Below are positions 373 to 43,137 of a stretch of 64,000 bases of DNA, piece after piece. A program made the position numbers and the translations under genes. The stretch's first letter is position 1. Each line of letters begins with the position of its first letter. Below the pieces are notes generated by a model. The model was not told the DNA's origin, did no database searches, and saw only the letters and a list, made by a program, of their open reading frames with translations. The stretch is from Cepaea nemoralis (lineage: Eukaryota; Mollusca; Gastropoda; Stylommatophora; Helicidae). The stretch spans positions 18,678 to 82,677 of the forward strand of contig JACEFZ010017842.1 in assembly GCA_014155875.1 (NCBI GenBank). The letters are read 5' to 3'.

Positions 373-625
373 GAGATGACTCTCATTGGGCAGTATCTTC
401 CAGTGAGCTGCCTGAGCCAAGAGTTGTGCAAGCCGAGGGCAGCCCAGCAGCTTCAGCTTTGCCAGCCAGCAGCCTGACACCTGCAACAGGGGTCAGTAGC
501 CCACCTTCGGATCTCAATGACAATGGCAGCTCATTGCTGTCTGAGGAGAGCGAGGTTCTGACTGAAAGCATGCACAAGATGAGCAGTGTACTGCCGACCA
601 TGTGGATGGGCACTCAAGATGGGAG
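373..625 (+). CDS. MAPK8IP3/SPAG9-like: JIP3/JIP4-like scaffold protein, exon E1 (partial gene)
   Basis: This exon encodes a Ser/Pro/Ala-rich linker followed by the start of the WD40-like C-terminal domain of a JNK-interacting protein 3/4. That family scaffolds JNK-pathway kinases and links kinesin-1 and dynein to vesicle cargo. The exon ends in LPTMWMGTQDG, close to the LPTMWLGAQNG of vertebrate JIP3/4. The acceptor is tttgtccaccag|GAG (phase 1) and the donor GGGAG|gtatct (phase 2). Joining to E2 gives GSIYVHSSV, the expected continuation. The linker before residue ~70 of the exon is poorly conserved in the family, so the acceptor is less certain than the donor. Earlier exons lie upstream of the window. 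Confidence 0.88.
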
Positions 626-8923: not shown

Positions 8924-9004
8924 CATATATGTCCACTCATCCGTGTCTGACTGGAGGAGGTGCATCCACTCCGTCAAACTGAGAGACTCGGTCCTGGCCA
9001 TTGT
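8924..9004 (+). CDS. MAPK8IP3/SPAG9-like: JIP3/JIP4-like, exon E2
   Basis: An 81-nt exon between ttgtggttgcag and the consensus donor GTAAGT. With two nucleotides from E1 it reads SIYVHSSVSDWRRCIHSVKL then RDSVLAIV. This is a blade of the WD40-like domain; the vertebrate equivalent has [26 protein letters not shown]. It starts in phase 2 and ends in phase 2, matching E1 and E3. No internal stop is present and the domain spacing matches the family. It is the only conserved element in the 13 kb between E1 and E3. Confidence 0.93.
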
Positions 9005-12985: not shown

Positions 12986-13004
12986 GAACAAGAAGAAGAC
13001 TGTT

Positions 13005-14280
13005 TGTCATCCACAGCCATGTCCACATAACTAGGTGATACAAATGTATATAATTGACTGTTTGTCCTCCGCCGCCATGTCCATGTAACTGCGTGAGACA
13101 AATGTATATAATTGACTGTTGTTCTCCACAGCCATGTCATGTAACTGCGTGAGACAAATGTATATAATTGACTGTTTGTTCTCCACAGCCATGTCCATGT
13201 AACTGCGTGAGACAAATGTATATAATTTTACTGTTGTTCTCCACAGCCATGTCCATGTAACTGCGTGAGACAAATGTATATAATTGACTGTTTGTTCTCC
13301 ACAGCCATGTCCATGTAACTGCGTGAGACAAATGTATATAATTGACTGTTTGTTCTCCACAGCCATGTCCATGTAACTGCGTGAGACAAATGTATATAAT
13401 TTTACTGTTTGTTCTCCACAGCCATGTCCATGTAACTGCGTGAGACAAATGTATATAATTGACTGTTTGTTCTCCACAGCCATGTCCATGTAACTGCGTG
13501 AGACAAATGTATATAATTGACTGTTTGTTCTCCACAGCCATGTCCATGTATAATTGAACTGTTTTGCCCTCTGCTGCCATGTCCATGTAACTGCGTGATA
13601 CAAATGTATATAATTGACTGTTTGTCATCCACAGCCATGTCCACATAACTAGGTGATACAAATGTATATAATTGACTGTTTGTCATCCACAGCCATGTCC
13701 ACATAACTAGGTGATACAAATGTATATAATTGACTGTTTGTCATCCACAGCCATGTCCATGTAACTGCATGAGACAAATGTATATAATTGACTGTTTGTT
13801 CTCCACAGCCATGTCCATGTAACTGGGTGAGACAAATGTATATAATTTTACTGTTTGTCATCCACAGCCATGTCCATGTAACTGGGTGAGACAAATGTAT
13901 ATAATTTTACTGTTTCTCATCCACAGCCATGTCCATGTAACTGCGTGAGACAAATGTATATAATTTTACTGTTTGTCATCCACAGCCATGTCCATGTAAC
14001 TGCGTGAGACAAATGTATATAATTTTACTGTTTGTCATCCACAGCCATGTCCATGTAACTGGGTGAGACAAATGTATATAATTTTACTGTTTGTCATCCA
14101 CAGCCATGTCCATGTAACTGCGTGAGACAAATGTATATAATTTTACTGTTTGTCATCCACAGCCGTGTCCATGTAACTGCGTGAGACAAATGTATATAAT
14201 TTTACTGTTTGTTCTCCACAGCCATGTCCATGTAACTGCGTGAGACATATGAATATAATTTGACTATTTGTTTTCCGCAG
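13005..14280. repeat. 58-bp minisatellite ending at the E3 splice acceptor (~22 copies)
   Basis: The unit is about 58 bp: gactgtttgttctccacag, CCATGTCCATGTAACTGCG, tgagacaaatgtatataatt. Each contains a pyrimidine-rich AG followed by CCATGTC. The last unit runs directly into the real acceptor ttgttttccgcag|CCATGTCAAG of E3, so the true 3' splice site is the end unit of the array. Some units have ttttact for ttgact. Minus-strand frames across it are period artefacts. Confidence 0.93.
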
Positions 14281-14348
14281 CCATGTCAAGGGACGGGTCC
14301 TGGCCTCCCTGACTGACGGAACTATTGCTGTCTTCCACAGAGCTACAG
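14281..14348 (+). CDS. MAPK8IP3/SPAG9-like: JIP3/JIP4-like, exon E3
   Basis: A 68-nt exon reading (V)HVKGRVLASLTDGTIAVFHR-AT between ttgttttccgcag and G|gtattt. Vertebrate JIP3/4 has [20 protein letters not shown] at the same place. It enters in phase 2 and leaves in phase 1, which fits E2 and E4. Its length is not a multiple of three, so skipping would shift the frame. Its acceptor is embedded in the 58-bp array, and it sits between the two inverted CACCC elements. Its identity is clear despite the short length. Confidence 0.93.
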
Positions 14349-19310: not shown

Positions 19311-19462
19311 ACGGTCAGTGGGATCTAGTCAGCTACCACCTGATTGTGGCTGGTCAAGCCAAAGAGTCGGTCTGCTGTATGACCATTGTGGATGGTCAGC
19401 GGGTCTGGTGTGGCTACAAGAACAAAATCCACATTGTCTGTCCGCTCTCCATGATCATCCAG
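19311..19462 (+). CDS. MAPK8IP3/SPAG9-like: JIP3/JIP4-like, exon E4
   Basis: A 152-nt exon (phase 1 in, phase 0 out). It reads DGQWDLVSYHLI, then [20 protein letters not shown] and ends SMIIQ. Vertebrate JIP3/4 has GQWDLSNYHLMDLG...[25 protein letters not shown], so this is a WD40-like blade with the diagnostic VWCGYKNK stretch. The acceptor is gattgtcttag and the donor CAG|gtgaga. The exon end ctctccatgatc recurs exactly 45 bp downstream in the intron (19490). Confidence 0.95.
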
Positions 19463-22526: not shown

Positions 22527-22698
22527 AAAACCTTTGATGCCCACCCACGGAATGAGAGCGTTGTCAGTCAGCTGTGCTGGGTGGGAGATGGGGTGTGGGT
22601 GTCCATCCACCTGGACAGCACGCTGCGCCTGTACCACGCCTACACCCATCAGCACCTGCAGGACATCGATGTGAAGCCCTGTGTCTCCAAGATGATCG
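22527..22698 (+). CDS. MAPK8IP3/SPAG9-like: JIP3/JIP4-like, exon E5
   Basis: A 172-nt exon (phase 0 in, phase 1 out) reading [57 protein letters not shown](G). It is the most conserved exon here; vertebrate JIP3/4 has [36 protein letters not shown] and [18 protein letters not shown]. The acceptor is attctcatactcag and the donor ATCG|gtgagt. The last 22 nt plus the first 23 nt of the intron are the founder of the 45-bp array that follows. Here the exon differs from the array and from vertebrates: PCVSKMIG against PYVSKMLG. Confidence 0.97.
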
Positions 22699-25600
22699 GT
22701 GAGTACTCTATCCTTGTGTGGCCCCATGTCTCCAAGATGTTGAGTGAGTACTCTATCCTTGTGTGGCCCTATGTCTCCAAGATGTTGGGTGAGTACTCTA
22801 TCCTTGTGTGGCCCTATGTCTCCAAGATGTTGGGTGAGTACTCTATCCTTGTGTGGCCCATGTCTCCAAGATGTTGAGTGAGTACTCTATCCTTGTGTGG
22901 CCCTATGTCTCCAAGATGTGGAGTGAGTACTCTATCCTTGTGTGGCCCTATGTCTCCAAGATGTTGGGTGAGTACTCTATCCTTGTGTGGCCTATGTCTC
23001 CAAGATGTTGGGTGAGTACTCTATCCTTGTGTGGCCCTATGTCTCCAAGATGTTGGGTGAGTACTCTATCCTTGTGTGGCCCCATGTCTCCAAGATGTTG
23101 AGTGAGTACTCTATCCTTGTGTGGCCCCATGTCTCCAAGATGTTGGGTGAGTACTCTATCTTGTGTGGGCCCTATGTCTCCAAGATGTTGGGTGAGTACT
23201 CTATCCTTGTGTGGCTCCTATGTCTCCAAGATGTTGGGTGAGTACTCTATCCTTGTGTGGCCCTATGTCCTCCAAGATGTTGGGTGAGTACTCTATCCTT
23301 GTGTGGCCCTATGTCTCCAAGATGTTGGGTGAGTACTCTATCCTTGTGTGGCCCTATGTCTCCAAGATGTTGGTGAGTACTCTATCCTTGTGTGGCCCTA
23401 TGTCTCCAAGATGTTGGGTGAGTACTCTATCCTTGTGTGGCCCTATGTCTCCAAGATGTTGGGTGAGTACTCTATCCTTGTGTGGCCCTATGTCTCCAAG
23501 ATGTTGGGTGAGTACTCTATCCTTGTGTGGCCCTATGTCTCCAAGATGTTGGGTAAATACTCTATCCTTGTGTGGCCCTGTCTCCAAGATGTTGGGTGAG
23601 TACTCTATCCTTGTGTGGCCCTATGTCTCCAAGATATTGGGTGAGTACTCTATCCTTGTGTGGCCCTATGTCTCCAAGATGTTGGTGAGTACTCTATCCT
23701 TGTGTGGCCCTATGTCTCCAAGATGTTGGGTGAGTACTCTATCCTTGTGTGGCCCTATGTCTCCAAGATGTTGGGTGAGTACTCTATCCTTGTGTGGCCC
23801 TATGTCTCCAAGATGTTGGGCTGAGTACTCTATCCTTGTGTGGCCCTATGTCTCCAAGATGTTGGGTGAGTACTCTATCCTTGTGTGGCCCTATGTCTCC
23901 AAGATGTTGGGTGAGTACTCTATCCTTGTGTGGCCCTATGTCTCCAAGATGTTGGGTGAGTACTCTATCCTTGTGTGGCCCTATGTCTCCAAGATGTTGG
24001 GTGAGTACTCTATCCTTGTGTGGCCCTATGTCTCCAAGATGTTGGGTGAGTACTCTATCCTTGTGTGGCCCTATGTCTCCAAGATGTTGGGTGAGTACTC
24101 TATCCTTGTGTGGCCCTATGTCTCCAAGATGTTGGGTGAGTACTCTATCCTTGTGTGGCCCATGTCTCCAAGATGTTGGGTGAGTACTCTATTCCTTGTG
24201 TGGCCCTATGTCTCCAAGATGTTGGGTGAGTACTCTATCCTTGTGTGGCCCTATGTCTCCAAGATGTTGGGTGAGTACTCTATCCTTGTGTGGCCCTATG
24301 TCCCCAAGATGTTGGGTGAGTACTCTATCCTTGTGTGGCCCTATGTCTCCAAGATGTTGGGTGAGTACTCTATCCTTGTGTGGCCCTATGTCTCCAAGAT
24401 GTTGGGTGAGTACTCTATCCTTGTGTGGCCCTATGTCTCCAAGATGTTGGGTGAGTACTCTATCCTTGTGTGGCCCTATGTCTCCAAGATGTTGGGTGAG
24501 TACTCTATCCTTGTGTGGCCCTATGTCTCCAAGATGTTGGGTGAGTACTCTATCCTTGTGTGGCCCTATGTCTCCAAGATGTTGGGTGAGTACTCTATCC
24601 TTGTGTGGCCCTATGTCTCCAAGATGTTGGGTGAGTACTCTATCCTTGTGTGGCCCTATGTCTCCAAGATGTTGGGTGAGTACTCTATCCTTGTGTGGCC
24701 CTATGTCTCCAAGATGTTGGGTGAGTACTCTATCCTTGTGTGGCCCTATGTCTCCAAGATGTTGGGTGAGTACTCTATCCTTGTGTGGCCCTATGTCTCC
24801 AAGATGTTGGGTGAGTACTCTATCCTTGTGTGGCCCTATGTCTCCAAGATGTTGGGTGAGTACTCTATCCTTGTGTGGCCCTATGTCTCCAAGATGTTGG
24901 GTGAGTACTCTATCCTTGTGTGGCCCTATGTCTCCAAGATGTTGGGTGAGTACTCTATCCTTGTGTGGCCCCTATGTCTCCAAGATGTTGGGTGAGTACT
25001 CTATCCTTGTGTGGCCCCTATGTCTCCAAGATGTTGGGTGAGTACTCTATCCTTGTGTGGCCCTATGTCTCCAAGATGTTGGGTGAGTACTCTATCCTTG
25101 TGTGGCCCTATGTCTCCAAGATGTTGGGTGAGTACTCTATCCTTGTGTGGCCCTATGTCTCCAAGATGTTGGGTGAGTACTCTATCCTTGTGTGGCCCTA
25201 TGTCTCCAAGATGTTGGGTGAGTACTCTATCCTTGTGTGGCCCTATGTCTCCAAGATGTTGGGTGAGTACTCTATCCTTGTGTGGCCCTATGTCTCCAAG
25301 ATGTTGGGTGAGTACTCTATCCTTGTGTGGCCCTATGTCTCCAAGATGTTGGTGAGTACTCTATCCTTGTGTGGCCCTATGTCTCCAAGATGTTGGGTGA
25401 GTACTCTATCCTTGTGTGGCCCTATGTCTCCAAGATGTTGGGTGAGTACTCTATCCTTGTGTGGCCCTATGTCTCCAAGATGTTGGGTGAGTACTCTATC
25501 CTTGTGTGGCCCTATGTCTCCAAGATGTTGGGTGAGTACTCTATCCTTGTGTGGCCCTATGTCTCCAAGATGTTGGGTGAGTACTCTATCCTTGTGTGGC

Positions 25601-26952
25601 CCTATGTCTCCAAGATGTTGGTGAGTACTCTATCCTTGTGTGGCCCTATGTCTCCAAGATGTTGGGTGAGTACTCTATCCTTGTGTGGCCCTATGTCTCC
25701 AAGATGTTGGGTGAGTACTCTATCCTTGTGTGGCCCTATGTCTCCAAGATGTTGGGTGAGTACTCTATCCTTGTGTGGCCCCTATGTCTCCAAGATGTTG
25801 GGTGAGTACTCTATCCTTGTGTGGCCCTATGTCTCCAAGATGTTGGGTTGAGTACTCTATCCTTGTGTTGGCCCTATGTCTCCAAGATGTTGGGTGAGTA
25901 CTCTATCCTTGTGTGGCCCTATGTCTCCAAGATGTTGGGTGAGTACTCTATCCTTGTGTGGCCCTATGTCTCCAAAGATGTTGAGTGAGTACTCTATCCT
26001 TGTGTGGCCCTATGTCTCCAAGATGTTGGGTGAGTACTCTATCCTTGTGTGGCCCTATGTCTCCAAGATGTTGGGTGAGTACTCTATCCTTGTGTGGCCC
26101 TATGTCTCCAAGATGTTGGGTGAGTACTCTATCCTTGTGTGGCCCTATGTCTCCAACATGTTGGGTGAGTACTCTATCCTTGTGTGGCCCTATGTCTCCA
26201 ACATGTTGGGTGAGTACTCTATCCTTGTGTGGCCCTATGTCTCCAAGATGTTGGGTGAGTACTCTATCCTTGTGTGGCCCTATGTCTCCAAGATGTTGGG
26301 TGAGTACTCTATCCTTGTGTGGCCCTATGTCTCCAAGATGTTGGGTGAGTACTCTATCCTTGTGTGGCCCTATGTCTCCAAGATGTTGGGTGAGTACTCT
26401 ATCCTTGTGTGGCCCTATGTCTCCAAGATGTTGGGTGAGTACTCTATCCTTGTGTGGCCCTATGTCTCCAAGATGTTGGGTGAGTACTCTATCCTTGTGT
26501 GGCCCTATGTCTCCAAGATGTTGGGTGAGTACTCTATCCTTGTGTGGCCCTATGTCTCCAAATGTTGGGTGAGTACTCTATCCTTGTGTGGCCCTATGTC
26601 TCCAACATGTTGGGTGAGTACTCTATCCTTGTGTGGCCCTATGTCTCCAACATGTTGGGTGAGTACTCTATCCTTGTGTGGCCCTATGTCTCCAAGATGT
26701 TGGGTGAGTACTCTATCCTTGTGTGGCCCTATGTCTCCAACATGTTGAGTGAGTACTCTATCCTTATGTGGCCCTATGTCTCCAAGATGTTGGGTGAGTA
26801 CTCTATCCTTGTGTGGCCCTATGTCTCCAACATGTTGGGTGAGTACTCTATCCTTGTGTGGCCTTATGTCTCCAAAATGTTGGGTGAGTACTCTATCCTT
26901 GTGTGGCCCTATGTCTCCAACATGTTGGGTGAGTACTCTATCCTTGTATGGC
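22677..26952 (+). repeat. 45-bp minisatellite copied from the E5/intron-5 donor junction (~94 copies)
   Basis: The unit is tatgtctccaagatgttg-G|GTGAGTACTCTATCC-ttgtgtggccc, that is exon 3' end, donor site and first intron bases. It is 45 nt and stays in the E5 frame as [15 protein letters not shown] for the first four units. A 1-nt deletion at about 22858 then leads to a stop at 22875-22877. Nearly every unit keeps GTGAGT. Rare variants are aacatg for aagatg (26150-26950), single-base indels and ctgagt or ttgagt. Frames of up to 594 codons are a by-product of the 45-nt period. Confidence 0.97.
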
Positions 26953-27144
26953 CATCAACTCGTGCAGCCAGCTAGTCACACAACACTATATTGTATTGTA
27001 CGTTGTAAATGCATTACTATATGCTTGAGCTCTTATAAGAGGAATGTCTGATCAGAACAACTATTATCGGGGTCTCAGGTGAGTTCGCCTTATCAGGTCT
27101 GCACTGTATTCATATAAATTGTGGTTGCTATGATAAAAAAAACA

Positions 27145-29590
27145 CTTGTCTACAGTTGTCATGGCAGGGCCAGTCTAAATGATTGATTGAATGTTGAGTA
27201 TGCCTACAGTTATCATGGCAGGGCCAGTCTAAATGATTGATTGAATGTTGAGTCAGGCATACAGTAGTAGTGGCAGGGTCAGTCTAAATGATTGATTGAA
27301 TGTTGAGTCATGCCTACAGTTATCATGACAGGGCCAGTCTAAATGATTGATTGAATGTTGAGTCAGGCCTACAGTAGTAGTGGCAGGGTCAGTCTAAACG
27401 ATTGATTGAATGTTGAGTCAGGCCTACAGTTGTCATGGCAGGGCCAGTCTAAATGATTGATTGAATGTTGAGTCAGGCCTACAGTTAGTCATGGCAGGGC
27501 CAGTCTAAATGATTGATTGAATGTTGAGTCAGGCCTACAGTTGTCATGGCAGGGTCAGTCTAAATGATTGATTGAATGTTGAGTCAGGCCTACAGTTGTC
27601 ATGGCAGGGCCAGTCTAAATGATTGATTGAATGTTGAGTCAGGCCTACAGTTAGTCAGTGGCAGGGCAGTCTAAATGATTGATTGAATGTTGAGTCAGGC
27701 CTACAGCTGTCATGGCAGGGCCAGTCTAAATGATTGATTAAATGTTGAGTCATGCCTACAGTAGTAGTGGCAGGGCCAGTCTAAATGATTGATTGAATGT
27801 TGAGTCATGCCTACAGTTGTCATGGCAGGTCCAGTCTAAATGATTGATTGAATGTTGAGTTCAGGCCTACAGTAGTAGTGGCAGGGCCAGTCTAAATGAT
27901 TGATTGAATGTTGAGTCATGCCTACAGTTGTCATGGCAGGGTCAATCTAAATGATTGATTGAATGTTGAGTTAGGCTTACAGTTGTCATGGCAGTGCCAG
28001 TCTAAATGATTGATTGAGTGTTGAGTCATGCCTACAGTTGTCATGGCAGGGCCAGTCTAAATGATTGATTGAATGTTGAGTTAGGCCTACAGTTGTCATG
28101 GCAGGGCCAGTCTAAATGATTGATTGAATGTTGAGTCATGCCTACAGTTGTCATGGCAGGGCCAGTCTAAACGATTTATTGAATGTTGATTCAGGCCTAC
28201 AGTTGTCATGGCAGGGCCAGTCTAAATGATTGATTGAATGTTGAGTTAGGCCGACAGTTGTCATGGCAGGGCCAGTCTAAATGATTGATTGAATGTTGAG
28301 TCATGCCTACAGTTGTCATGGCAGGGCCAGTCTGAATGATTGATTGAATGTTGAGTCAGGCCTACGGTAGTAGTGGCAGGGTCAGTCTAAATGATTGATT
28401 GAATGTTGAGTCAGGCCTACAGTTGTCATGGCAGGGCCAGTCTAAATGATTGATTGAATGTTGAGTCATGCCTACAGTTGTCATGGCAGGGCCAGTCTAA
28501 ATGATTGATTGAATGTTGAGTCAGGCCTACAGTTGTCATGGCCAGTGGCGTCACTGGAGTTGGTGTCACCCATGCGGTAAACTCTTGGTGTCACCCCTCT
28601 AGACTTTCACCATGGTCTTCTTCCGAGTGTTCCTGTACCATATATAATCGCATATAGTAATGTTTGTAAAATAAGTCAAAAAGTTAATAAGGACATAAGA
28701 AAGAAAACAAATTGAACAATATAACTTCAATACTTCAGGTAAAACATAAATAAAGAACTTCGACAAACTCGGACAAAGTTAAATTTTTGTTATTTTGCTA
28801 TGTCTGCTTTGTCAAATTTGCAATTTTTTTATTTTGGTGTCACCCCTTGATGGTGTCACCCGGTGCGGCCCGCACCCCCCGCACCCCCCGCGTGACGCCC
28901 CTGGTCATGGCAGGGCCAGTCTAAATGATTGATTGAATGTTGAGTCAGGCCTACAGTTGTCATGACAGTGCTAGTCTAAATGATTGATTGAATGTTGAGT
29001 CAGGCCTACATTCGTCATGGCAGGGTTAGTCTAAATGATTGATTGAATGTTGAGTTAGGCCTACAGTTGTCATGGCAGTGCCAGTCTAAATGATTGATTG
29101 AATGTTTATTCATGCCTACAGTTGTCATGGCAGTACCAGTCTAAATGATTGATTGAATGTTGAGTCAGGCCTATAGTTGTCATGGCAGTGCCAGTCTAAA
29201 TGATTGATTGAATGTTGAGTCAGGCCTACAGTTGTCATGGCAGGGCCAGTCTAAACGATTGATTGAATGTTGAGTCAGGCCTACAGTTGTCATGGCAGTG
29301 CCAGTCTGAATGATTGATTGAATGTTGAGTCAGGCCTACAGTTGTCATGGCAGTGCCAGTCTGAATGATTGATTGAATGTTGAGTCAAGCCTACAGTTGT
29401 CATGGCAGGGCCAGTCTGAATGATTGATTGAATGTTGAGTCATGCCTACAGTTGTCATGGCAGGGCCAGTCTAAACGATTGATTGAATGTTGAGTCATGC
29501 CTACAGTTGTCATGGCAGGGCCAGTCTGAATGATTGATTGAATGTTGAGTCAGGCCTACTGTTGTCATGGCAGTGCCAGTCTAAATGATT
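27145..29590. repeat. 55-bp minisatellite (~38 copies)
   Basis: The unit is ctacagttgtcatggcaggg, ccagtctaaatgattgattg, aatgttgagtcaggc. Variants (gtagtagtgg for gttgtcatgg, catgcc for caggcc, tctgaat for tctaaat) are clustered. It is split by a hAT-type MITE at 28543-28903. Confidence 0.95.
28543..28903. mobile_element. hAT-type non-autonomous DNA transposon (MITE), 361 bp
   Basis: The left end is CAGTGGCGTCAC; the right end, reverse-complemented, is CAGGGGCGTCACG. It is flanked by the exact 8-bp direct repeat gtcatggc (28535-28542 and 28904-28911), which occurs once in every normal 55-bp unit. CAG-starting inverted termini with 8-bp target duplications are the hAT hallmark. No transposase coding; the interior is AT-rich with tggtgtcaccc motifs near both ends. 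Confidence 0.9.
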
Positions 29591-29592
29591 TC

Positions 29593-29690
29593 ACAGGCCT
29601 TATTCACTGCCATGGGTTGTAGTTATTAAGCCTTTTTGAAGCGCAATGTACCAAACCATCTTATGTCAAGACAGCAAGGTGCCAATGAAT
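29593..29690 (+). mobile_element. 5'-truncated LINE 3' end
   Basis: The sequence cactgccatgggttgtagtt, aagcctttttgaagcgcaat and gtcaagacagcaaggtgcca aligns with the 3' end of the LINE at 34462-40215 (reverse strand there). Only the last ~100 bp are present, a typical 5'-truncated insertion. 29691-29902 holds nothing I recognise. Confidence 0.7.
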
Positions 29691-29902
29691 GATGATATGG
29701 CCCACAGGCAGGACGTTGCCCATTCCTGACATAGAATACCTGCACCTGTTCCAGGTCCACTCAGACATTGTAGAAACTGGGTCATTCATTGACATTGAGT
29801 GCCTGTGATGCTGGCCAGTGTTTTACGTTGACCCTAATGTTGTTTGCACTAACTACTCCGAGTTCTTGTTCTGTTGATCACGTTTGTTTGATCTCTATGA
29901 TG

Positions 29903-30260
29903 TTACTAGTTTAGTTAAGTGGACAGATCAACATCACGGCACACGGGTGTAACCCATAAGTGCTCCGTTCTACTCCTAACTCAAGCCTGAGTCCAGAGAA
30001 TATCAGCTCAGTACTCAAACTCTGTAGCACCGGCGAGGATCCTGAAATAATTTGGGTAGATTTTTAACTCAAAATTTTGCCGGGCAGCGCCATTAGGCTA
30101 TACTTTTTTATTTTCCAACTGCCAAGGGATTTTTTACATGCAGAACAATACACTTGGGCGTCTGATCTCACTACCCAGAAACCAGGGGACATTATTTTAC
30201 TAGAAGTCCACGTGACAAAATACCGGCCCTCACCGGGGCTTGAAACCCGGGAAAGAATGT
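29903..30260 (-). mobile_element. SINE family 1, second copy (head truncated)
   Basis: The reverse complement aligns with the body of the SINE at 14770-15182 (tgcacataagtgct region, gaggatcctgaaata, actgccaagggatttttt, box B-like gggcttgaaacccgggaaa region at 30236). The box A end is lost. Confidence 0.8.
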
Positions 30261-30264
30261 ATGA

Positions 30265-30420
30265 GAGGAAATAGAGAAGAAGGGCAGAATGTCAGACGGG
30301 CCTGCGTGCCCAATTCTTAACCCTTTAAAAATAAAGATTTTAGTTCGTTCGTTCGTTCTTCTTCTTCTTCTTCTTCTTCTTCTGCTTCCATGCCGATTTT
30401 TTTTTTTTTTCCGATTTGAT
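30265..30420 (+). mobile_element. CACCC-element 3' end remnant plus (TTC)n
   Basis: ggcctgcgtgcccaattctt then aaccctttaaaaataaag and gttcgttcgttc match the 3' terminus of the CACCC-rich element. The body is missing. A TTC run and a T-run follow. Confidence 0.65.
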
Positions 30421-30429
30421 TTGCGTTGT

Positions 30430-31465
30430 GCCCTGTTTACAGCAGACCTGCTTCGTGCGCTGACCCGGGCCGCGGCTTCACCCGGTCCCCTGGTGGGAGC
30501 ATCTAATTTTAATTCATATCGAGTCTATAAGCTCTCCCCGTTCCCGACTATCTGTTGTCCTGTCTAGCTGTCCTGTCTGTCCCGGCCGCTTCACCCAGTA
30601 CCTGTTGGGGAGCAATCTAATTTTATTCATATACGTATCATATAAGCTCTCCCGTTCCCGACTATCTGTTTGTCTTTATCTGTCTATCTGTCCCGCCCGG
30701 CTTCACCCAGTCCCTGGTGGGAGCATCTATTTAATTCATATACGTAGTCATATAAGCCATCCCGTTCCCGAACCTGTCCTGTCTTGTCTAATCTGTCTGT
30801 CTGACCCTGCGCCGGGTGGGCCCCCCCCCCCCCCCCCCTTTTTTCACCCGTCCCTGTGGGGAGCATGTCATCTAATTCATATAAGTAGTCAATAAGCTTC
30901 CGTTCCCGACTATCTGTCTATCTATCTGACCCGGCGTGGTTTCGCCCAGCTCCTGGCGCACAGTAACTTAAAAGAATGTCCTTCCACACACCATTCAATG
31001 AAAACTGTAGAAAAAGATGGGTTACAATGTTATGCATTATGCATTATTTTTATGAAAACTTTGAAAATGCCTTAAAGATTATATCATTATTTATTATAAC
31101 TCATATGCCTGAAAATAACTATAGACAAAGAGTTTAACAATAGTGCAAGTAAGTCCAACAATATGACTATAAAGTATATAAAAATGTTATTAAAAGTTAT
31201 GCCCCTTGAAATAACTTTTCTAGAGTGAAGTCCCCCTGCTATATAGACATTATATAATGAAAATGGAAAAGTAAATGTTATTAAATAAGTCGACGATTTT
31301 ACATTAAGAAATTATTATAGTCGGTTGCAAATGAATGAAAGGAAGACGTGTAGAAAATTTCATCTCAATCGGATGTACCGTTATTGAACGCATCCAATAC
31401 ATAAATCCCCACACACAAACAAACAAACATACACTCTGTTTTATAGATATAGATTATAGACTGTA
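30430..31465 (-). mobile_element. Dispersed element with GC-rich end (Helitron-like?), copy 1
   Basis: Four ~130-bp repeats at 30440-30950 (ggcttcacccagtccctggt, gggagcatct, ataagctctcccgttcccga) are the reverse complement of the GC-rich end seen at 59288-59335. The other end (31330-31465: gaagacgtgtagaaaatttc, acaaacaaacaaacatacac) matches 56640-56700. The family is therefore dispersed. A Helitron-type origin is suggested only by the hairpin-like GC end and CTAG terminus of copy 2. Confidence 0.5.
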
Positions 31466-31649
31466 ATCTATTTTTATAGACAAAATGGAGTATGTGGTCA
31501 ATATCATGGAGTCACCTTTACTTTCCTGAATATTCCCCGATACCCATAGATTGGGTCAACATGGGAGCCCAGGGTAATTTGTTAAAAGTCCCTGCATCCA
31601 TGGGTAGTCAGACACATGGTCCGCCATGACGGCAAGCTAGCATGCATTC
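31466..31649. other. Intron 5 unique sequence
   Basis: No gene or repeat recognised between the dispersed element and the mariner. Confidence 0.5.
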
Positions 31650-32998
31650 TATAAAGGCGTTAATTTGAAATCCGTTCGTGCCGCACGGCGCGTAATTGCG
31701 TACGTTGAACATGATCATGTCATAGTCATGTGATAAGTACTGACCAATGAATAAAAGAGCAAGTGCTTATCGTCCCATGATGCATAGGTTCTGTTTCTGA
31801 CCGTTGAGAAAATGGCCGGGTTGATCCAAAATCCGTCCAAAGAAGCTCAAAGAGCGGTGATTCAGTTTCTTTCATTTGAAGGATGTTGACCAGTGGACAT
31901 TCATCGAAGAATGCAGGCAGCGTACGGTAACAAATGTGTGTCGAAGACAACAATGACAGACTGGGCACGGATGTTTAGGAAAGGACGTCAGTTCACGACA
32001 GATATTCGATGGTCAGGTTAAGCGCATATTGTTGCAACAGAAAAAAAAACATTGCCAGAATGGATGCGGCAGTACCGATGAACCGTTGTCGAAGCATACG
32101 TTCGCTAATGAAAGAATTTGATGTATCAGGGACAATTCAAAAGGTCGTTCGTAAGAAACTGCAATATCGGAAGATGTGTTCAGTGGATACAACGGATGTT
32201 GACTGACCACCAAAAAGAGGAACACATGGGATGGTGTTTGAACCACTTGCTGCGTTACAGAGTGGAGGGTGATGCATTTCTCTTCCGCATAGTGGCAGGC
32301 ATGAATCATGGTGTCACCACTTTGAGCCGAGCAGCAAAAGAGAGAGCATGCAATGGAAGCATGCTGGATCACCAAAAGCCAAAAAATTCAAGTTACAGGT
32401 TTCCGCTGGTAAGGGTATGCTGAACACATTTGTTGACCATGAAGGTTATTGTTGGCCAACTTTAAAGAACCTGGTGTCAACATCAACTCTACCCACTACT
32501 TGCAAACACTAGACAAGCTGCAAAAAGCCATCAAGAATAAACGATCCAGCATGCTTTCTCGCGGTGTGATTTTGTTGCACGATAATGCTCATCCGCATGT
32601 CACAAAGATTGTGCAGGAAGCATTAGCAAGGAAGAAGTGGGAAATTCTGCAACAACCAACATATAGTCCTGATTTGTCACCATGTGATTTTCATTTGTTT
32701 GGATCACTAAAACAAAAATCTCAAGGGGCAACGATTTCACACAGATGCAAACGTAATGAGCGCAGAAAACACTTGATTCAGTGAGCAACCACAATCCTTT
32801 TTTTGCGGACAGCATTCGCCGCCTACCTAAGCAATTTGATGCTTGCCTTAATGCCTCCGGCGGCTTCTTCTGACCAATCCTTGGTGCATAATTCATTCAA
32901 AATGAATGCTTTGTTTAATTCTACCACACCTGTTAATGTTTCTTTCATGCTTTTGTAATGAAGCCATTGGAACGGGTTTCAAATGAACGCCCCTAATA
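31650..32998 (+). mobile_element. mariner-type DNA transposon, inactivated
   Basis: The ~1.35 kb length is standard for mariner. The ends are inverted repeats: aaggcgttaatttgaaatcc at ~31655 and, reverse-complemented, ggggcgttcatttgaaaccc at ~32992, both next to TA. The transposase is read in pieces: a helix-turn-helix N-terminal part from ~31820 (RMQAAYGNKCVSKTTMTDWA), a middle part, and the C-terminal HDNAHPHVTKIVQEAL...YSPDLSPCDFHLFGSLK at 32580-32715. The last part keeps the D and PDLxPxDFHLF motif region of the catalytic core. At least three frame changes and several stops inactivate it. Confidence 0.88.
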
Positions 32999-32999
32999 T

Positions 33000-34461
33000 G
33001 ATGTTACTATTTGTTCCATCTACTCTACCCATTGTTTAAATCTGCTGCAAGTGTTCTATCTACATTAGTCCATTCTGTCTATATTAACTGTTTGTTCTAT
33101 CTGCTCTGTGTTCTATTTACAGTATCTGTTATGTATAAGTAACTGTTATATCTATTGTAACTCTTTGTTGTGACCACTGTAAATGTATATTTGTTCTATC
33201 TAAATAATACATTTCCTGTTGTTCTACTTACTATAAACATTTCTTATAGTTCTGTCTACTGTAAACATTTCTCTATGTCCTATCTACTTTCAGCCTTTAC
33301 CTTCTGTATATTAATATCTTCCATATTTCTATAAAAGAAGGAACATTTCTTATTGGTCTTTCTACTGTAAACATGTGTGGGGGGTTCTATCTACTGTAAA
33401 TATGTTTTGTTTGTTCCATCTGTTGTAAATGTTTGTTTGTTCTATCTACTGTAATTATGTTTGTTAGGTCTATCTACTGTAAATATATTTGTTTGTTCTT
33501 TTTACTGTAAATATGTTTGTTTGTTCTGTCTACTGTAAATATGTTGTTTGTTCTATTTACTGTAAATATGTTTGTTTAGCCGGTCTTTCTGGCTGTGGGG
33601 TTACAACACTTTCTCTCTGTAATCCCGTTTATCACGCAGAGTCTCGTAGCGGAGCGAGAGCTGAGGTGGTTCGACCCCCGCTCGTGACTTGCGGGATACT
33701 GAGCCGGCCGCTCAGAAAGCAATGGCAAACTACTGAGCGTAATCTTGCCAAGAGATCAACATACAGCTGAAAGATGCTGGTGTTGACAGCTAAGTCCTGT
33801 AAAGGATATGCTAAAAAAAAAAAAAAAAATGTTTGTTTATTCTATCTAACCTTTTGATGTTTTGTTTGTTCCATCTACTGTAAATATGTTTGTTTGTTCT
33901 ATCTACTATAAATATGTTTGTTTGTTCTATCTACTATACATATGTTTGCTATATCTACTATAAATATGTTTGTTTGTTCTATCTACTATGCATATGTTTG
34001 TTTGTTATATCTACTATAAATATGTTTGTTTGTTCTATCTACTATAAATATGTTTGTTTGTTCTATCTACTATGCATATGTTTGTTTGTTATATCTACTA
34101 TAAATATGTTTGTTTGTTCTATCTACTATAAATATGTTTGTTTGTTCTATCTACTATAAATATGTTTGTTTGTTATATCTACTATAAAAATGTTTGTTTG
34201 TTCTATTTACTGTAAATATGTGTGATTATTCTATCTATGGTAAATATGTTGTGTTTGTTCTATCTACTGTAAATATGTTTGTTTGTTCTATCTAATATAA
34301 ATATGTTTTGTTTGTTCTATCTACTGTAAATATATTTGTTTGTTCTGTCTACTGTAAATATTTTTGTTTGTTTCTATCTACTGTAAATATGTTAGTTTTA
34401 TCCATGGCAAATATGTTTCTTCTGTCTGTTGTAAATATGCTTGTTCTATCTACTGTAATTC
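33000..34461. repeat. 28-bp minisatellite (gtttgttctatctactgtaaatat)
   Basis: Degenerate from 33000, then regular units of tgtttgttctatctactgta plus aatatgtt. Blocks with ctataaat and ctatgcat recur at 33890-34160. It is interrupted by a SINE at 33578. It originally continued to the E6 acceptor: the sequence right of the LINE (tctactgtaaattatgtttg, tttattctag) is one more unit. Confidence 0.88.
33578..33828 (+). mobile_element. SINE family 2, complete copy with A-tail and target duplication
   Basis: It begins agccggtctttctggctgtg and has a box B-like GGTTCGACCCC at ~33670. It ends with a 17-nt A-run. The flanking direct repeat atgtttgttt lies at 33568-33577 and after the A-run (33829-33838). 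Related copies: 61065-61321 (reverse), 18936-19110 (reverse, worn) and 16736-16805 (remnant). Confidence 0.88.
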
Positions 34462-34520
34462 ATTGGCACCTTGCCGTCTTGACAGACAATAGTTTGTGCT
34501 TCAAAAAGGCATAATAACTT

Positions 34521-35273
34521 TTACCCATGGCGGTAGCGAATGTGACTGATAAGGCCAATTCGCGCTGTAAATATTCGTTCACAGTGGGTGCATGTGAACA
34601 CGTGGTCATTTCCACCATCATGCACCATCTTACGTCTCACATGCTCGGTGTGTGACTTATCTGCAATAATTTTCTCCTTTGTCTTTATTCCATTTCTGAT
34701 GTTTGCCCTCCATGCAACACGTTCAGCGGCGACTTGCTCCCAATATGCATTATCAATGCCTGTATCAATCATGTCCCGTTTACACACATCTTTGTATCGT
34801 AGTAGAGGCCAACCCTGAGATCTCTTACCCATCTGTAATTCACCAAAAAAGATGTCCTTTGGTATTCTACCATCATCCATCCTCCTAAGATGTCCTATCC
34901 ATCTAAGTCTACGAAGACTGAGCATGGAATAAACCGTCACACAACCTGATCTTTCCAATACTTCAGTATTTGTGATTTTGTCTTGCCACTTAATACAGAG
35001 AATTCTTCGCAGACACCGCATATGAAAGCTGTTTAAACATTTCTCTTGGTGTAAGTAAGTTGTCCAGGTTTCACTGCCATAAAGAAGAGTACTAAAGACA
35101 CAGGCTTGATAGACAAGGACTTTTGTTTTGGCAGTAAGCTTCCTGTTCTCCCGGACTCTTGTTCTTAACCTGTTCATTGTTGTTGCTGCCTTACCAATCC
35201 GGATGTTGATTTCCTGATCTAGGGATAATTTGCTATTTACCACTGATCCTAGATATGTAAAATGGTCTACCAT
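34521..35273 (-). pseudogene. LINE ORF2, C-terminal part with C2H2 finger
   Basis: A 250-codon open frame. The N-terminal part is the post-RT thumb region (FTYLGSVVNSKLSLDQEINI, STLLYGSETWTTY at residues ~60-85). A conserved middle contains RRLRWIGHLRRMDDGRIPKD. It ends in a Cys2-His2 finger (CTHCERIFTARIGLISHIR followed by YRHG). This order is well known from animal LINEs. It joins the RT frame at 35318 across a short frame break, so the ORF is not intact. Confidence 0.85.
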
Positions 35274-35317
35274 CTCTAGTTCGGCGTCGTCAATAACGAT
35301 TGATGGTACCCCATCAA

Positions 35318-36275
35318 TTATGTCCCTTGTGACATAATCTGTGTCTTCTGTTTGCTAATTGTTAAACCAAATTCAGAACAAGCATTGGAGAATGCAGATA
35401 GTAGACATTGTAATTCTTCCTCAGAGTGGTTCGTAACTACAGCATCATCTGCGAAAAAGCCTCCCAATTTGGGTCTTGGCCTCCAATCTCTGAGCATTGT
35501 GGAGGCCGCCATCTGAGTGTGAGTAAATGTATATACCACCATCCTGATCACGAAAGGCATATTTCAGTAGAAGTGAAAAGTATATTCCAAAGAGGGTGGG
35601 AGCTAGTACACAACCTTGCTTAACACCACTCTTGATTTCAAACTCTTCAGAAGTTGCACCATCAAACTTGATTATACCCTTCATGCCTGTGTGGAACGAT
35701 TCCACAATGGACAGAAGAGTTGGTGGGCAGCCAATCTTCTTTAGTGCCTTGAACAGACCCTCACGTCTGACCAAATCAAATGCCTTTGTGAGGTCGATGA
35801 AGGCAATAAACAGTGGTTGATTCTGTTCACGGCATTTTTCTTGCATTTGTCGCAATGAGAATATCATATTAATGGTAGACCGGTTCTGTGGAAAGCCACA
35901 CTGTGATTTGGGGTAGACTTGATCTCCTAGGACTTGAAGTCTGCGCAGAACAATTCTGGCAAATACTTTTCCAACAATACACAGTTGTTGCAGTCGCTCC
36001 GATCGCCCTTGTTCTTGTACAGTATTATGATGCTTGAATCTTTGAAATCCTGTGGGACTTGTCCTTCTCGCCAGCATATCTCTATTAGTTGGTGGATCTG
36101 TAGAGTGAGTGTGTCTTGCCCACTCCTGATAACCTCTATTGGAATTCCATCCTTACCTGGAGCCTTGCTAGATGCAAGTTCATTTATAGCACACTTAACT
36201 TTTGTTATAGTGGGAAGTGTGTCCAGGTGGTCAAGAGTTGGTAGAGCCTCTATGGCTTTGAGGGCATCATCCCCC
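35318..36275 (-). pseudogene. LINE ORF2, reverse transcriptase domain (frameshifted)
   Basis: RT motifs appear in order on the minus strand: KAPGKDGIPIEVIRSG and LYKNKGDRSDCNN (about 36020-36180, one frame), CGFPQNRSTINMIF and FIAFIDLTKAFDLV (35760-35900), SGVKQGCVLAPTLF (about 35600-35640), then in another frame GGFFADDAVVTN (about 35435-35465) with the catalytic Asp pair. At least two frame changes (near 36080 and 35455) disrupt one ORF. The catalytic residues themselves are retained. Confidence 0.87.
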
Positions 36276-37222
36276 TAGTTTGGTCTCACTTGAGTAAAGC
36301 TCCACCTGTCCATCTGCTGTTTCTTATCAGTTATGATTTCTCCAGTCAATGTTTTCAATGGTGCACTTCTTTTGATCATTGGACCACAGGCTTTCTTTAT
36401 TCCTTCATACACACTTCTGACGTTTCCCTTATCACTTGCAATTTGAATGGACTCACATAACTTGATCCAATAATCATTTGCACACTGCCTGGCAGCCTTT
36501 TGCACATCCTTCCTAGCTTGCTTTAGCTCACTCAGAGTGTTACGTGTGGGTCTTTCCTTGTTTCTTAAGAGAGCTATCTTCTTCTTATCAATCAAGGGCT
36601 GCAGAGTCTGGCTGTTTGCCGCAAACCAGTCCTGCCTCTTATGATCCACAGTGCCATAAACCCCTACGGCAGTTTTATAAAGAATTTCCTTAAGTTGACC
36701 CCACTTTTCACTTACTGTACAATTTTCTTGTGTATCAGTGAAAGCGTCATCAAGTTGCTGTTGAAACTGAAAGCACTTTTCAGGATCGTGAGTGTTAATA
36801 ATATTAATCCTGGGGCTAGATTTGTGTTTAGCCGTGTAGATTCTCTTTGGTCTCAGTCTAACCCTTGCAACAACCAAAGAATGATCTGTATCACAGTCAG
36901 CACTGTGGTAACTTCGTGTAAATGATATATGGTTCAGATGTTGTCTCCATGTGATGATGATGTCCAGCTGGTGCCAATGGCCGGATGTTGGATGTTTCCA
37001 TGTGACTTTATGCAGCTCTTTTGTTTTAAAAAAGGAGTTTGTAATACATAGGTCATTTCTAGTGCAATGCTCCAGCAGCCTTTGCCCATTTTCATTCATG
37101 CGACCGATGTTGTATTTTCCAAGGCACACTGGCCATGAACTCGAGTCCTTGCCCACACGAGCATTGAAAGCACAGAGCACATAAATGTAGTCAGATTTTG
37201 GAAGTGCCTTGACGTGGTACAT
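36275..37222 (-). pseudogene. LINE ORF2, endonuclease C-terminal half and linker
   Basis: A 315-codon frame. It starts in the endonuclease at KSDYIYVLCAFNARVG, where the family has GDFNARVG, so the usual GD is CA here. It goes on through WQHPT-like WKHPTSGHWHQLDIII and SADCDTDHSLVVARVRL, the expected D-H catalytic region, and a basic linker to the RT. The N-terminal half of the domain lies at 38998-39500, beyond an inserted element. Confidence 0.85.
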
Positions 37223-37224
37223 TT

Positions 37225-38995
37225 CGCACTGCGAGCGCTATCAAGACAAGTCACATGAACAAGTCAAGAAGCCTGATACGGGGGAAAATGACACGTCGCA
37301 AGAACACCAAGAAACACACGGTATCCAAGATGTGCAGTGTGGGAGCCGACAAGACCGTCAAGAAGATGAACGTGGAGAGCCTGCCTGCTAACTGTACTAA
37401 AGAACCTGAAACTACAAGTATTACTGAAGCTACCACAAGGGGAAGATCGACAGCCCACCACAGACAAGAGTCAAGACAATAGAGAAGAAGGAGGAGAAAG
37501 ACACCAGAGCCGGGAACACCGACTCAAAAACAGTCCGATGGGTTGTCAAGCGGATTCGAGTGGAGCTAACAGACAAAGAAATCCTGAAGCAGCTATGAGA
37601 AGAGAATCTTCACATCTGAATCTTGAAGGCGGAGCGGCTCCTCACCTACTCCAAGATACCTACAACCTTGGCAGTGGTGACGTCGGAGGGCAGCGAAATG
37701 CCGACCACAGTATCAATCAGCAAGAAAATACAACAGCCAGAGAGATTCATCCCAAGAGTCAATCAATGTTCAAGATGCCAGAGAGCCGGCCACAGCAGAG
37801 CAACATGCCGCAGTAAGATGGAAATCTGACGGTATTGCGCCGATCACCACATCTTAAAGGAGTGTTAGCTGGCCAAGCTGGACACGGACTTCTGAGCACC
37901 CAACAACAAAAGAAAGTGCGCCAACTGCCTGGGCATGCATGGAGTAAGATACTTAGGCTGTCCATACCTCCAAAGACACAGAGACATCTTAAAGATCGCC
38001 ACCACCAAAAAGACACCATATAAGGACGCAGTGCGGAGGTGCGAGACAGCAACCTGCATCTCACAAGCCGAGAAAGAGCAACTGCAAAGCCAGATTGATG
38101 AGTTAAAGAAGCAAGTCAAGCTACTGCAAACATCGGCACCAACCAGCGACAATGGGAAACTTCTTGATGAAATAAAGGAGATCCCGCGGGACATCAAACA
38201 AGAGGTGGAGAACATGAGGCAGATGACAAAGATAAATGAAGAGATTCTACGAGACATCAAAGTGGTAAGAGAAATGCTAACAAATGAAAGGGAGCCAAAC
38301 CAAATCAAACCAGCAGAAGAAACGGAAAAGATCACAGAGAAACCACAAGATGAAATCCAACAAGAGACCGAACCGGAACCGCAAGATAAAGCCAGCAGCC
38401 CAGCCACGACAATATCCCGACAGACATCCGAAGAAAACCAAGATGACCATCCTGACGTCGGTACGGAGAAACCCCGGGCACCTACCTTGGAGGAGCTACA
38501 AGAGGGGGCAAGAGTGGAGGTACTCAGGCACCAGGAATTCAAAGGTGTTGGGATGAAAGAGAAGAAACTCAGATGCTATGAACCTGATTATGATCCTGAC
38601 TACTCGTACTACATAGAAGACGGAGAGAGAAAACTATGGCTGACCGCGGAGGAAAAAATCGAAAGGAAGCAGAAACTCAAACTCGAAAGTGAAAACAGGC
38701 GCAAGGAGGAAAATGGAAACGTCGAAAAGCTCCTGCAGAAAATACACAAAAAAGGAAACAAAAAGACCAAATAAAAAGTCCTTATAAGGACTGTACCCAG
38801 ATGAGCCAGAAGCCTGCACCAACAAAGAGAACCACAAAAGCATACAAGCACAAAGGACAGCCACCGAACGACCCCCAGCTGACGTCACAGACACAAACCA
38901 ACATAATCAGTCCAAGATAGGACTCACAAGACAAGAATTAGGGTGAATGAACCCACAAAAATTCCACAGGATCTCAACAATAACCACAGCTTAAA
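37225..38995 (+). mobile_element. Element nested inside the LINE endonuclease, carrying an ORF1 (gag-like)
   Basis: A 1.77-kb segment on the opposite strand separates the two halves of the LINE endonuclease. Flanks share a diverged ~17-bp match (ttggaagtgccttgacg / ttggaacttccttgatc), possibly a target duplication. The contents are an ORF1-type protein (see next entry) and no RT, so it is a truncated non-LTR element or an ORF1-only derivative. Confidence 0.65.
37255..38774 (+). pseudogene. ORF1/gag-like nucleic-acid-binding protein of a non-LTR element
   Basis: The reading starts with a basic region (37255-37482). A stretch at 37545-37830 in other frames includes a zinc knuckle CSRCQRAGHSRATC, followed by CADHHILKEC-type and CANCLGMHGVRYLGC-type knuckles near 37835-37970. 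The 279-codon open frame 37935-38774 then gives a coiled-coil-like acidic region (KEQLQSQIDELKKQVKLLQT) and a highly charged C-terminus ending KIHKKGNKKTK. Three CCHC knuckles plus a coiled coil is the usual plan of Jockey/I-type ORF1 proteins. At least two stops or frame changes in the N-terminal half break it. Confidence 0.7.
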
Positions 38996-38997
38996 AA

Positions 38998-39500
38998 CGC
39001 AGGTTGAACGAGGCCGAATTTGGAATTTTTGTTTTGAGAATTGGAATTGGAACTTCCTTGATCACGGAGTCTAACTCCTCATAGAACGAATCCTTCACAT
39101 CATCAAAGGAATCGAGTGTCGATGCATATGCAATAATAATGGTGGCAAAACTACAAGAGAGAATAATAGTCTTTCATTTCCTCCTGCTGGAATTTCAATC
39201 ATTCCCAGTAGTGAATTCTTCACTGCAACGCCCACACCATGTTGCCTTTTTTCTGCCTGCCCTCTACCCTTCAAAAAAAAAGGTGTAACTTGTTTTCCCT
39301 TAGTGACCCTTCCTCAGCGAGACGAGTCTCCTGCAGGCCAGCAATATCAGTGTTAAGACGATTGAGTTCAGCATCAATCACAGCCATTTTTCTCATATCG
39401 TCAATATTGGTCAAGTCAGTGGAAAATCCTGGACACGTGGTTCTCACGTTCCAGGTTGCAAGCCATATCTTGAGTTTTCTATCTTTCTTTTTATTAGTAC
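38998..39500 (-). pseudogene. LINE ORF2, endonuclease N-terminal half
   Basis: The minus strand reads ATWNVRTTCPGFSTDLTNID then AELNRLNTDIAGLQETRLAE (39300-39460). These are the first two conserved blocks of the AP-endonuclease domain (NxR and QETR). Further on it reads YASTLDSFDDVKDSFYEELD (about 39060-39130). Indels such as the A-run at 39268-39282 break the frame. Confidence 0.8.
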
Positions 39501-40244
39501 CTGGTGTATTGGTTTTACAGCCTGCGATTCAGATTTTGTCTTAGCCCCAAGCACCCATTGATGCAGGCAGGCTGTGGCGGATCAGCACCCAATTGGCCGG
39601 GGGCTGCCCAGCTTGAGGCGGGCGGTAGCTGATTAGTGACACCTGTAGGTGTCTCCCACTGTCAGAGGCAACGCGTGGTGCCCCATGTCTATGCCAATTG
39701 ACAGGGACTTATAACCCGTAACAGTTGCCTCTCGCTTTAATTCCGAGACCGGTTAAGACCAGGAATGGTGTTATTGCCTCTCTATAGAACAAAGCCTGGG
39801 CTAAAATATAGAGATCATGTGTTGCCCATGCAGCACGATCCCTCCCTCGGCCTGCCTAGTTCACTCCAGAGGAAAGGTAACACCTCTAAATCTGGAACAA
39901 GATAAGCTGCAGAAGCTGCCGGATCATGCAATGCTCTAACTGTCCGCCTGTCAGAGCTTCGATCGTAGACCAGCTGCCAACCAAGGCGTAGGGCCTGGTC
40001 TGCCCGGCCATGACATTTTGTCTTTAGGTTGCATTTCCTCGCACCAGGGTAAGGCTTGTACCCTCTCAATTGTGCTCTTCCACCTGAAGCTGTTGGCACA
40101 ATGTGGGGTGTCGGGTTTGGTAAGCGCCGCCCAACGTTTGGCGCTAACAGAAAGCAGGTAGTACTGTCTACAGTTATACGGTAGCTCAGTCATATCTGAC
40201 TAAGACCTGACACCTCTACTGTAAATTATGTTTGTTTATTCTAG

Positions 40245-40361
40245 GTGTAGGTTTAAGAAAACAATTTATGTTTGTCGGAGTGACAGCAATGATGATCTCA
40301 TGTAATCGCCTCTGGATTGGGACTAACAATGGAGTCATCATGTTCATTCCTTTGCCTGAGA
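40245..40361 (+). CDS. MAPK8IP3/SPAG9-like: JIP3/JIP4-like, exon E6
   Basis: A 117-nt exon (phase 1 in, phase 1 out) reading (G)VGLRKQFMFVGVTAMMISC, NRLWIGTNNGVIMFIPLPE. Vertebrate JIP3/4 has [37 protein letters not shown]. The acceptor is gtttgtttattctag|GT and the donor GAGA|gtgagt. The SCNRLWxGTxNGVIxxIPL signature makes it certain. It sits 17.5 kb downstream of E5 because intron 5 is swollen by repeats and a LINE. Confidence 0.96.
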
Positions 40362-40494
40362 GTGAGTATATATGTAGCTATATATATCCTGCTCTCTCTC
40401 CTCCCCTCCAGCTCTCTCTCCCTCCCTCCCTCCCACTCTCTCTCTTTCTCCCTCCCACTCTTTCTCTTTCATCCTCCCATCCTTTCTCTCCTTT

Positions 40495-40551
<57 letters not shown>

Positions 40552-42737: not shown

Positions 42738-42881
42738 ACAACAAGCAACCAATGACTGCCACATCCACCAGCACAGACTCTGACAGTCAACCTGGTGGCG
42801 ACACCAGCATGAAGAATTTTCCCCCTTACATGTCCTTCCATGGACATAAGGATGCCGTCACTTTCTTCGCTGCGGTGCCAG
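42738..42881 (+). CDS. MAPK8IP3/SPAG9-like: JIP3/JIP4-like, exon E7 copy a
   Basis: A 144-nt exon, acceptor attctaacaaccag, donor CCAG|gtcagt. With the A carried from E6 it reads (N)NKQPMTATSTSTDSDSQPGG, DTSMKNFPPYMSFHGHKDAV, TFFAAVP(G). Vertebrate JIP3/4 has NKTSG at the start and LCFHGHRDAVKFFVAVPG at the end. Phase 1 at both ends and a length divisible by three make it symmetric. This copy keeps FF as in vertebrates; the other three read FL. It is therefore the best candidate for the ancestral copy. It is shorter than the vertebrate exon, lacking the PGSVIRVYGD-type middle. Confidence 0.93.

Positions 42882-43074: not shown

Positions 43075-43137
<63 letters not shown>

Follow-up and report, generated by a model that had tools for sequence, protein, structure and literature searches.

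A probable mirage-type minisatellite of 95 donor-bearing units across an exon-intron boundary in a candidate JIP3/JIP4 paralog of the land snail Cepaea nemoralis

Minisatellites whose units span an exon-intron boundary, with splice sites copied along with the repeat, have been described in lancelets as "mirage" minisatellites for Adh3, the globin genes BflGb6 and BflGb9, troponin C, and PGBD5 (PMC3087553, PMC3902484); in the sections of those reports drawn on here, the arrays are said to leave splicing undisturbed, the units measure ~10 to 160 base pairs (bp), and the cluster edges escape homogenization. Here we describe a genuine case of this known kind of repeat, unusual and of large size, in a 64,000-nucleotide (nt) stretch of Cepaea nemoralis (contig JACEFZ010017842.1, positions 18,678 to 82,677 of the forward strand; hereafter the window, within which all positions are counted). 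The array lies where the exon numbered E5 meets intron 5 of a gene that is probably a fast-evolving land-snail paralog of the JIP3/JIP4 type.

The snail array resembles mirages in its unit (45 nt), which crosses the boundary and carries the splice site, in its edges, and in having the functional boundary outermost: E5 is intact, its donor at 22699 is the outermost one, and the match to the closest homolog stops there. It differs in host, since the published mirages that we found are all from lancelets, and in size, as it has 95 units compared with 6 and 3 in the two BflGb6 haplotypes, one duplicate in BflGb9, and a repeat of three in PGBD5. New here are the stronger predicted donors in most copies (81 of 94), a live exon that has diverged from copies appearing to keep its older end, and a second, acceptor-side array at E3, so that a single gene segment carries both donor-side and acceptor-side arrays. 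Tandem genomic duplication of AGGT-bearing segments, reportedly a route of intron gain (PMC4974935, PMC3443670), likewise copies splice signals in tandem, but the snail gene has gained no new intron; its old one has been enlarged. Boundary variable internal tandem repeats of human segmental duplications (PMC2812944) also involve minisatellite expansion and possible splice changes, but as described in the excerpt used they average four 30-bp units (~160 bp) and are kept in exons or form novel introns, whereas the snail array covers 4.3 kilobases (kb) and is apparently intronic.

Anatomy of the array and its host gene

Tandem Repeats Finder (TRF) reported a period of 45 over 22676-26953, with 95.1 copies, 98% matches, and a score of 8184, far beyond chance. 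An anchor search placed 95 donors in this interval, the true one at 22699 and 94 copies, the last at 26929, which bears out the original prediction of a 94-copy minisatellite made of an exon-intron donor junction. Its proposed unit was likewise correct: 22 nt from the end of E5 (22677-22698) followed by 23 nt from the start of intron 5, beginning with GTGAGT. E5 runs from 22527 to 22698, which puts the G of the true donor at 22699, as predicted. The hexamer is intact in 92 of the 95 donors (one reads GTAAAT and two are disrupted by a 1-nt insertion). The E5 donor region has 95 matches other than itself, and 94 of these extend at least 5 nt past the boundary in both directions. Spacings between donors are 45 nt in 75 cases, 46 nt in 10, 44 nt in 8, and 43 nt in 1, and 58 of the 94 inter-donor units are identical. 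The middle of the array is uniform: two central blocks of 16 units were compared with the consensus, and 13 units were equal to it in either block. The two ends are diverse (6 of 16 and 6 of 14). Units are joined as TTGTGTG-GCC-CTATGTC, the exon reads GAA-GCC-CTG at the corresponding point, and the intron past the last unit reads ATG-GCC-ATC.

Only four donors (22699, 22744, 22789, and 22834) are in frame and open, while another 44 of the 95 are in phase yet behind a stop. The predicted loss of frame after the first few copies, at a 1-nt deletion near 22858, was confirmed by a 44-nt spacing before 22878. The three open copies would add 15, 30, and 45 residues to E5; of the claim that they add 15-residue blocks, the frame stands, but the first added block differs from the unit consensus. 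The array has long stop-free stretches, but a coding repeat, or chance, was rejected on the 19 of 94 spacings that depart from 45 nt and on the few open donors.

Eight exons with GT-AG ends and consistent phases were joined into one frame of 375 amino acids (aa), and tblastn of a Bradybaena similaris protein, P0121, recovered all eight, its match at E5 ending at 22700, that is, at the exon end with the codon completed by the donor G. The C-terminal WD40_2 propeller is present (PF19056, 1.3e-38 in Pfam) and fits the JIP3/JIP4 family. PF09744 and PF16471 are among the precomputed domains of P0121; the corresponding parts of the snail gene would lie upstream of the window. These two we take to be the N-terminal coiled-coil and leucine-zipper parts of JIP3/JIP4. 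A protein search returned 144 relatives among 4827 candidates, and a longer chimeric query, which served only to reach full-length proteins, returned 4210 among 7989 scored; alignments were built from the matches listed for each search (120 of 144 and 120 of 4210) and held 120 and 119 proteins, respectively. Specifically named relatives are mostly C-Jun-amino-terminal kinase-interacting protein 3 or 4, or sperm associated antigen 9. Among the matches listed, P0121 is the best, at 75% identity, and a second, conserved Bradybaena protein, P0123, has 58%.

Trees were computed from hand-picked rows, an earlier one from 36 of the 120 listed proteins plus the window protein and a later one from 20 of 239 plus the window protein (21 proteins). 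The window protein pairs with P0121 with support of 100/100, on a branch of 0.46 versus 0.06 for P0121, and for this reason we regard the gene as probably a fast-evolving JIP3/JIP4-type paralog; the pairing also points to a stylommatophoran land snail as the probable host, and a lancelet origin was dropped in view of the two trees. The protein sequences suggest that JIP was duplicated in snails and that one of the copies evolves fast. Bradybaena has two full-length JIPs, with P0123 conserved and P0121 on a long stem (0.82) that it shares with the window protein. The exact start of E6 is not fixed, because a second in-frame acceptor AG follows the first by 6 nt (TAG, then GTGTAG; 40243-40250) and the homolog match begins only at 40265. 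Rfam gave no match at gathering scores, and a PDB sequence search gave two matches only, with E 2.1.

Donor choice and the end of E5

Pairing with the 5' end of U1 small nuclear RNA was predicted with a nearest-neighbour duplex model, which gave -10.8 kcal/mol for the true donor and -11.8 for 81 of its 94 copies; four copies scored -10.6, and the other nine, including the first (22744), -6.5 to -7.9. Equally strong GT sites are rare elsewhere (11 of 4065 outside the array, 1 of 912 in the rest of intron 5), and the array packs ~86 sites of near-equal or greater predicted strength into 4.3 kb. Published rules and the structure of relatives nevertheless suggest that 22699 most likely dominates splicing. 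The introns flanking the 172-nt E5 are 3.1 kb and 17.5 kb long, and in the part of a human survey used here, the upstream donor is favoured where flanking introns are long and sites are near-equal; smaller exons are also favoured, with a bound at 250 nt, and use of 22789 or 22834 would make exons of 262 and 307 nt. The E5 and E6 parts are joined directly in 223 of 239 relatives, all from other species (the remaining 16 were not classed), and a repeat-like peptide occurred in 0 of the 239 scanned. When the repeat peptide served as the query, with candidates limited to lengths of ~66-210 aa, none shared three words with it. The donors at 22789 (+30 residues) and 22834 (+45) would be the only plausible productive alternatives; 22744 is nearer but less plausible because it is predicted to be weak.

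The copies encode PYVSKMLG, whereas live E5 reads PCVSKMIG, and 3 of the 22 nt in the copy that the exon itself carries depart from the unit consensus. Counts over the array region are 86 for TATGTCTCCAA, 5 for CATGTCTCCAA, and 1 for TGTGTCTCCAA, which is that of the exon; likewise, ATGTTG occurs 92 times and ATGATC once, again in the exon. In the 113 of the 120 aligned proteins that cover the joint, Tyr is found in 110 and Leu in 112, and the Cys or Ile of the live exon in none; P0121 reads EPYVSKMLG directly followed by SGKLGFSF. A pooled scan of the 239 relatives gave 224 pattern matches, with Tyr in 223 and Leu in 224, but the pattern requires particular residues next to these sites, a bias toward conserved rows that makes the count over 113 relatives the fairer one. 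Pfam scores of the two exon-end variants, 67.9 versus 68.7 bits, are only weakly informative. Since the copies encode a sequence that is near-universal in relatives and that live E5 has lost, the intron appears to preserve an older exon end. On the simplest reading, the first copies arose at a time when the exon encoded PYVSKMLG, and its change to PCVSKMIG came later; the exon may instead have changed first and the bulk of the expansion followed, an early copy having retained the older bases, and the outcome would look identical.

The original prediction had offered three roles for the array: donor decoy, sponge for the U1 small nuclear ribonucleoprotein, or source of protein-length variation. 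The donors show no sign of special conservation within the unit, as the hexamer holds 4 of 48 variant cells versus 6.4 expected (P 0.40, a test of low power). Array-exon overlaps in the window number 2, compared with 4.4 expected by circular shifts (3.7 for a stricter list; each of the four E7 copies was counted as an exon), and GTRAGT is found in the consensus of 2 of the window's 51 tandem-repeat rows. Without excess exon overlap, and with so few donor-bearing repeats, there is no indication that exon ends or donors attract arrays. None of the three roles found support in the hexamer counts, in the relatives, which lack the repeat peptide, or in the overlaps, which are not above random; the decoy idea has one real point in its favour, the stronger U1 binding predicted for most copies.

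We consider it likely, on these sequence comparisons, that the array is a boundary-spanning minisatellite of the mirage type, tolerated in intron 5 by a fast-evolving JIP3/4 paralog of a land snail, with no positive function needed. The 45-nt stretch would have been duplicated, probably via the 3-nt GCC match at the break points, which may have primed the first event, and would have grown to its present size by slippage or unequal exchange, which would account for the uniform middle and the diverse edges. As the original exon end stays outermost, the gene would tolerate the array as intron, with the E5 acceptor paired by exon definition with the nearest donor, 22699, and with minor use at most of 22789 and 22834.

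Points against a tolerated array, and alternatives

Several observations weigh against this explanation. Most of the copies are predicted to bind U1 ~1 kcal/mol more strongly than the true donor, the human survey cited above found the stronger site to prevail in 86% of events, and the lancelet globin authors, in the passages used, allow that copied sites could serve as cryptic sites. Extra residues occur near the joint in 2 of 119 aligned relatives: P0215 (Patella vulgata, isoform X10) has eight, DRYRFKLK, at the joint equivalent to E5/E6, and this limpet gene model suggests that the junction may vary elsewhere too, while P0238 has a stretch of other sequence nearby; neither insert resembles the repeat. 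The intron half of the unit holds 9 of 48 variant cells, fewer than the exon half (P 7e-6; 9 of 27 by distinct variant types, P 0.08); this hints faintly at constraint, or else at slippage in homopolymers of the exon half, where the C and G runs sit. Support for an intact gene from stop codons (0 seen versus 3.8 expected without constraint, given 81 residue differences from P0121; P 0.023) is weakened because the exons were picked partly for openness.

Changes at near-invariant residues are also concentrated around the E5/E6 junction, with 12 of 24 in the stretch reaching 15 residues to either side versus 13 of 103 beyond it (P 1.6e-4). Windows of 10, 15, 20, and 25 residues were tried, with P 0.002, 0.00016, 0.0005, and 0.008, and the best 30-residue stretch of changes was reached in 1 of 300 permutations. 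A mainly molluscan and fish set gave 12 of 27 versus 31 of 161 (P 0.0065), and direct comparison with P0121 gave 10 of 29 versus 71 of 345 (P 0.10). The clustering is thus seen in two of three comparisons and, if real, is not predicted by a passive array; it would fit donor takeover or local relaxation.

It is possible, though we hold this only tentatively, that the paralog is losing function in this snail and that the array is a symptom of its decay. The long branch relative to its Bradybaena partner fits such a course, as do changes at 43 of 188 near-invariant columns, compared with 22 in P0121 and 5 in P0123, and an E7 that is quadruplicated and ~20 residues shorter than in P0121. All eight exons are open with GT-AG ends, however, and the absence of stop codons likewise speaks for a gene that is not plainly dead. 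Decay is compatible with a tolerated array and not exclusive of it.

Takeover of the splice donor by the array appears unlikely. Messenger RNA would then use an in-frame copy, best 22789 or 22834, the protein would gain 15-residue blocks whose number can vary with the array, and the copy would supply the ancestral PYVSKMLG before E6, leaving the original exon end, now interior, free to change together with the start of E6. Consistent with this, three copies keep the frame open, the two favoured ones are predicted to be stronger than 22699 (-11.8 versus -10.8), and the exon end and E6 start are altered at near-invariant sites; but the block is absent from P0121 and from the other relatives scanned, the repeat-peptide search was empty over its range of candidate lengths, the resulting exons would exceed the 250-nt bound, and the Pfam WD40_2 score falls from 67.9 to 59.8, 57.6, and 56.8 bits with one, two, and three blocks. 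If takeover were nonetheless true, a minisatellite would shift an exon boundary stepwise while the gene stays in use.

Inflation or mis-polishing of a few true units during assembly is improbable. Indels do affect 20 of 94 units, many in C or G runs, and the share of indels among variant cells (22 versus 26 substitutions) exceeds that in the 2.6-kb duplicates downstream (~1:3), but ordered edge variants, a uniform centre, and intact unique flanks are features of a real minisatellite. Least credible is a U1 sponge or telescripting role, in which the donors would retain U1 at the start of the 17.5-kb intron and thereby suppress polyadenylation that comes too early, or would keep the nascent donor close to the polymerase: the density of strong predicted sites, the tethering of nascent 5' splice sites through U1 (in the part of the literature used), and 8 AATAAA and 3 ATTAAA motifs downstream of the array in intron 5 can be cited for it, but the array itself contains neither motif, its donors are not preferentially conserved (at low power), and the rarity of GTRAGT means that most arrays of the window exist without donors.

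Other repeats in the window and significance

Minisatellites (period at least 20, at least three copies) occupy 22,353 of the 64,000 nt, or 35% of the window, in 33 merged blocks. The acceptor-side array at E3 (Table 1) has a unit made of the intron end, the acceptor, and ~7 nt of exon, and ends inside E3; AG is present in 20 of its 22 copies and the frame is open from none of the 22. We interpret both exon arrays as harmlessly placed, with the real site outermost.

Table 1. Positions of the exons, splice donors, and boundary arrays in the window
Feature	Positions	Strand	Evidence or remark
Exon E1 of window	373..625	+	homolog match from 375
Exon E2	8924..9004	+	tblastn of P0121
58/59-nt array across intron 2/E3 acceptor boundary	12998..14287	+	true acceptor + 22 copies
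Exon E3	14281..14348	+	tblastn of P0121
Exon E4	19311..19462	+	tblastn of P0121
Exon E5, 172 nt, ends phase 1, begins KTFDAHPRN	22527..22698	+	AG before, GTGAGT after
45-nt array, 95 donor-bearing units across E5/intron 5 boundary	22676..26953	+	TRF, anchor search
True donor GTGAGT	22699..22704	+	predicted U1 pairing -10.8 kcal/mol
Intron 5, 17,546 nt, phase 1, GT-AG	22699..40244	+	3' end could sit 6 nt later
Frame-keeping copy donors 22744, 22789, 22834 (+15, +30, +45 residues)	22744..22839	+	
Exon E6 (VGLRKQFMFVGVTAMMISCNRLWIGTNNGVIMFIPLPE)	40245..40361	+	start not fixed
Exon E7, first of four tandem copies, 144 nt, phase 1-1	42738..42881	+	tblastn of P0121
Exon E8	61981..62121	+	tblastn of P0121

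E7 lies in a ~2.6-kb segment present in four tandem copies (~40400-50750, limits approximate). The E7 copies start at 42738, 45465, 47963, and 50555, and the later ones differ from the first by 1-2 substitutions per 144 nt; given the 1-1 phase, the frame would be preserved whether several copies were included or one in place of another. The ~20 residues that the first copy lacks relative to P0121 include CSMAQAQ. Within intron 5, a 28-nt array at 33353-34398 matches the last 30 nt of the intron (within 40185-40244), 6 kb downstream of it, at 93%, with reverse-transcriptase sequence between that array and E6. Mobile-element remains in the same intron comprise a reverse transcriptase (RVT_1, 9.4e-21, 35445-36152, minus strand) and a DDE transposase (DDE_3, 2.2e-7, 32443-32784, plus strand). 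The end of intron 3 before E4 (19251-19310) matches diverged units at 15620-16506, ~3 kb upstream, at 75-80%. Of the 12 intron ends that lie outside arrays, 3 have at least four array matches within 8 kb, compared with 47 of 800 random 60-mers (P 0.03); to take this as a general association of arrays with intron ends was rejected as over-reading, since without one low-complexity end among the three the P value is 0.15.

With the snail array, the mirage phenomenon appears to extend from lancelets to molluscs, at far larger copy number. By predicted U1 pairing, ~86 natural donors as strong or nearly as strong as the true one, or stronger, stand right after a live exon, a setting in which exon proximity would be pitted against U1 strength. 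Finally, an older version of the exon end, lost from the live exon itself, would survive in the intron.

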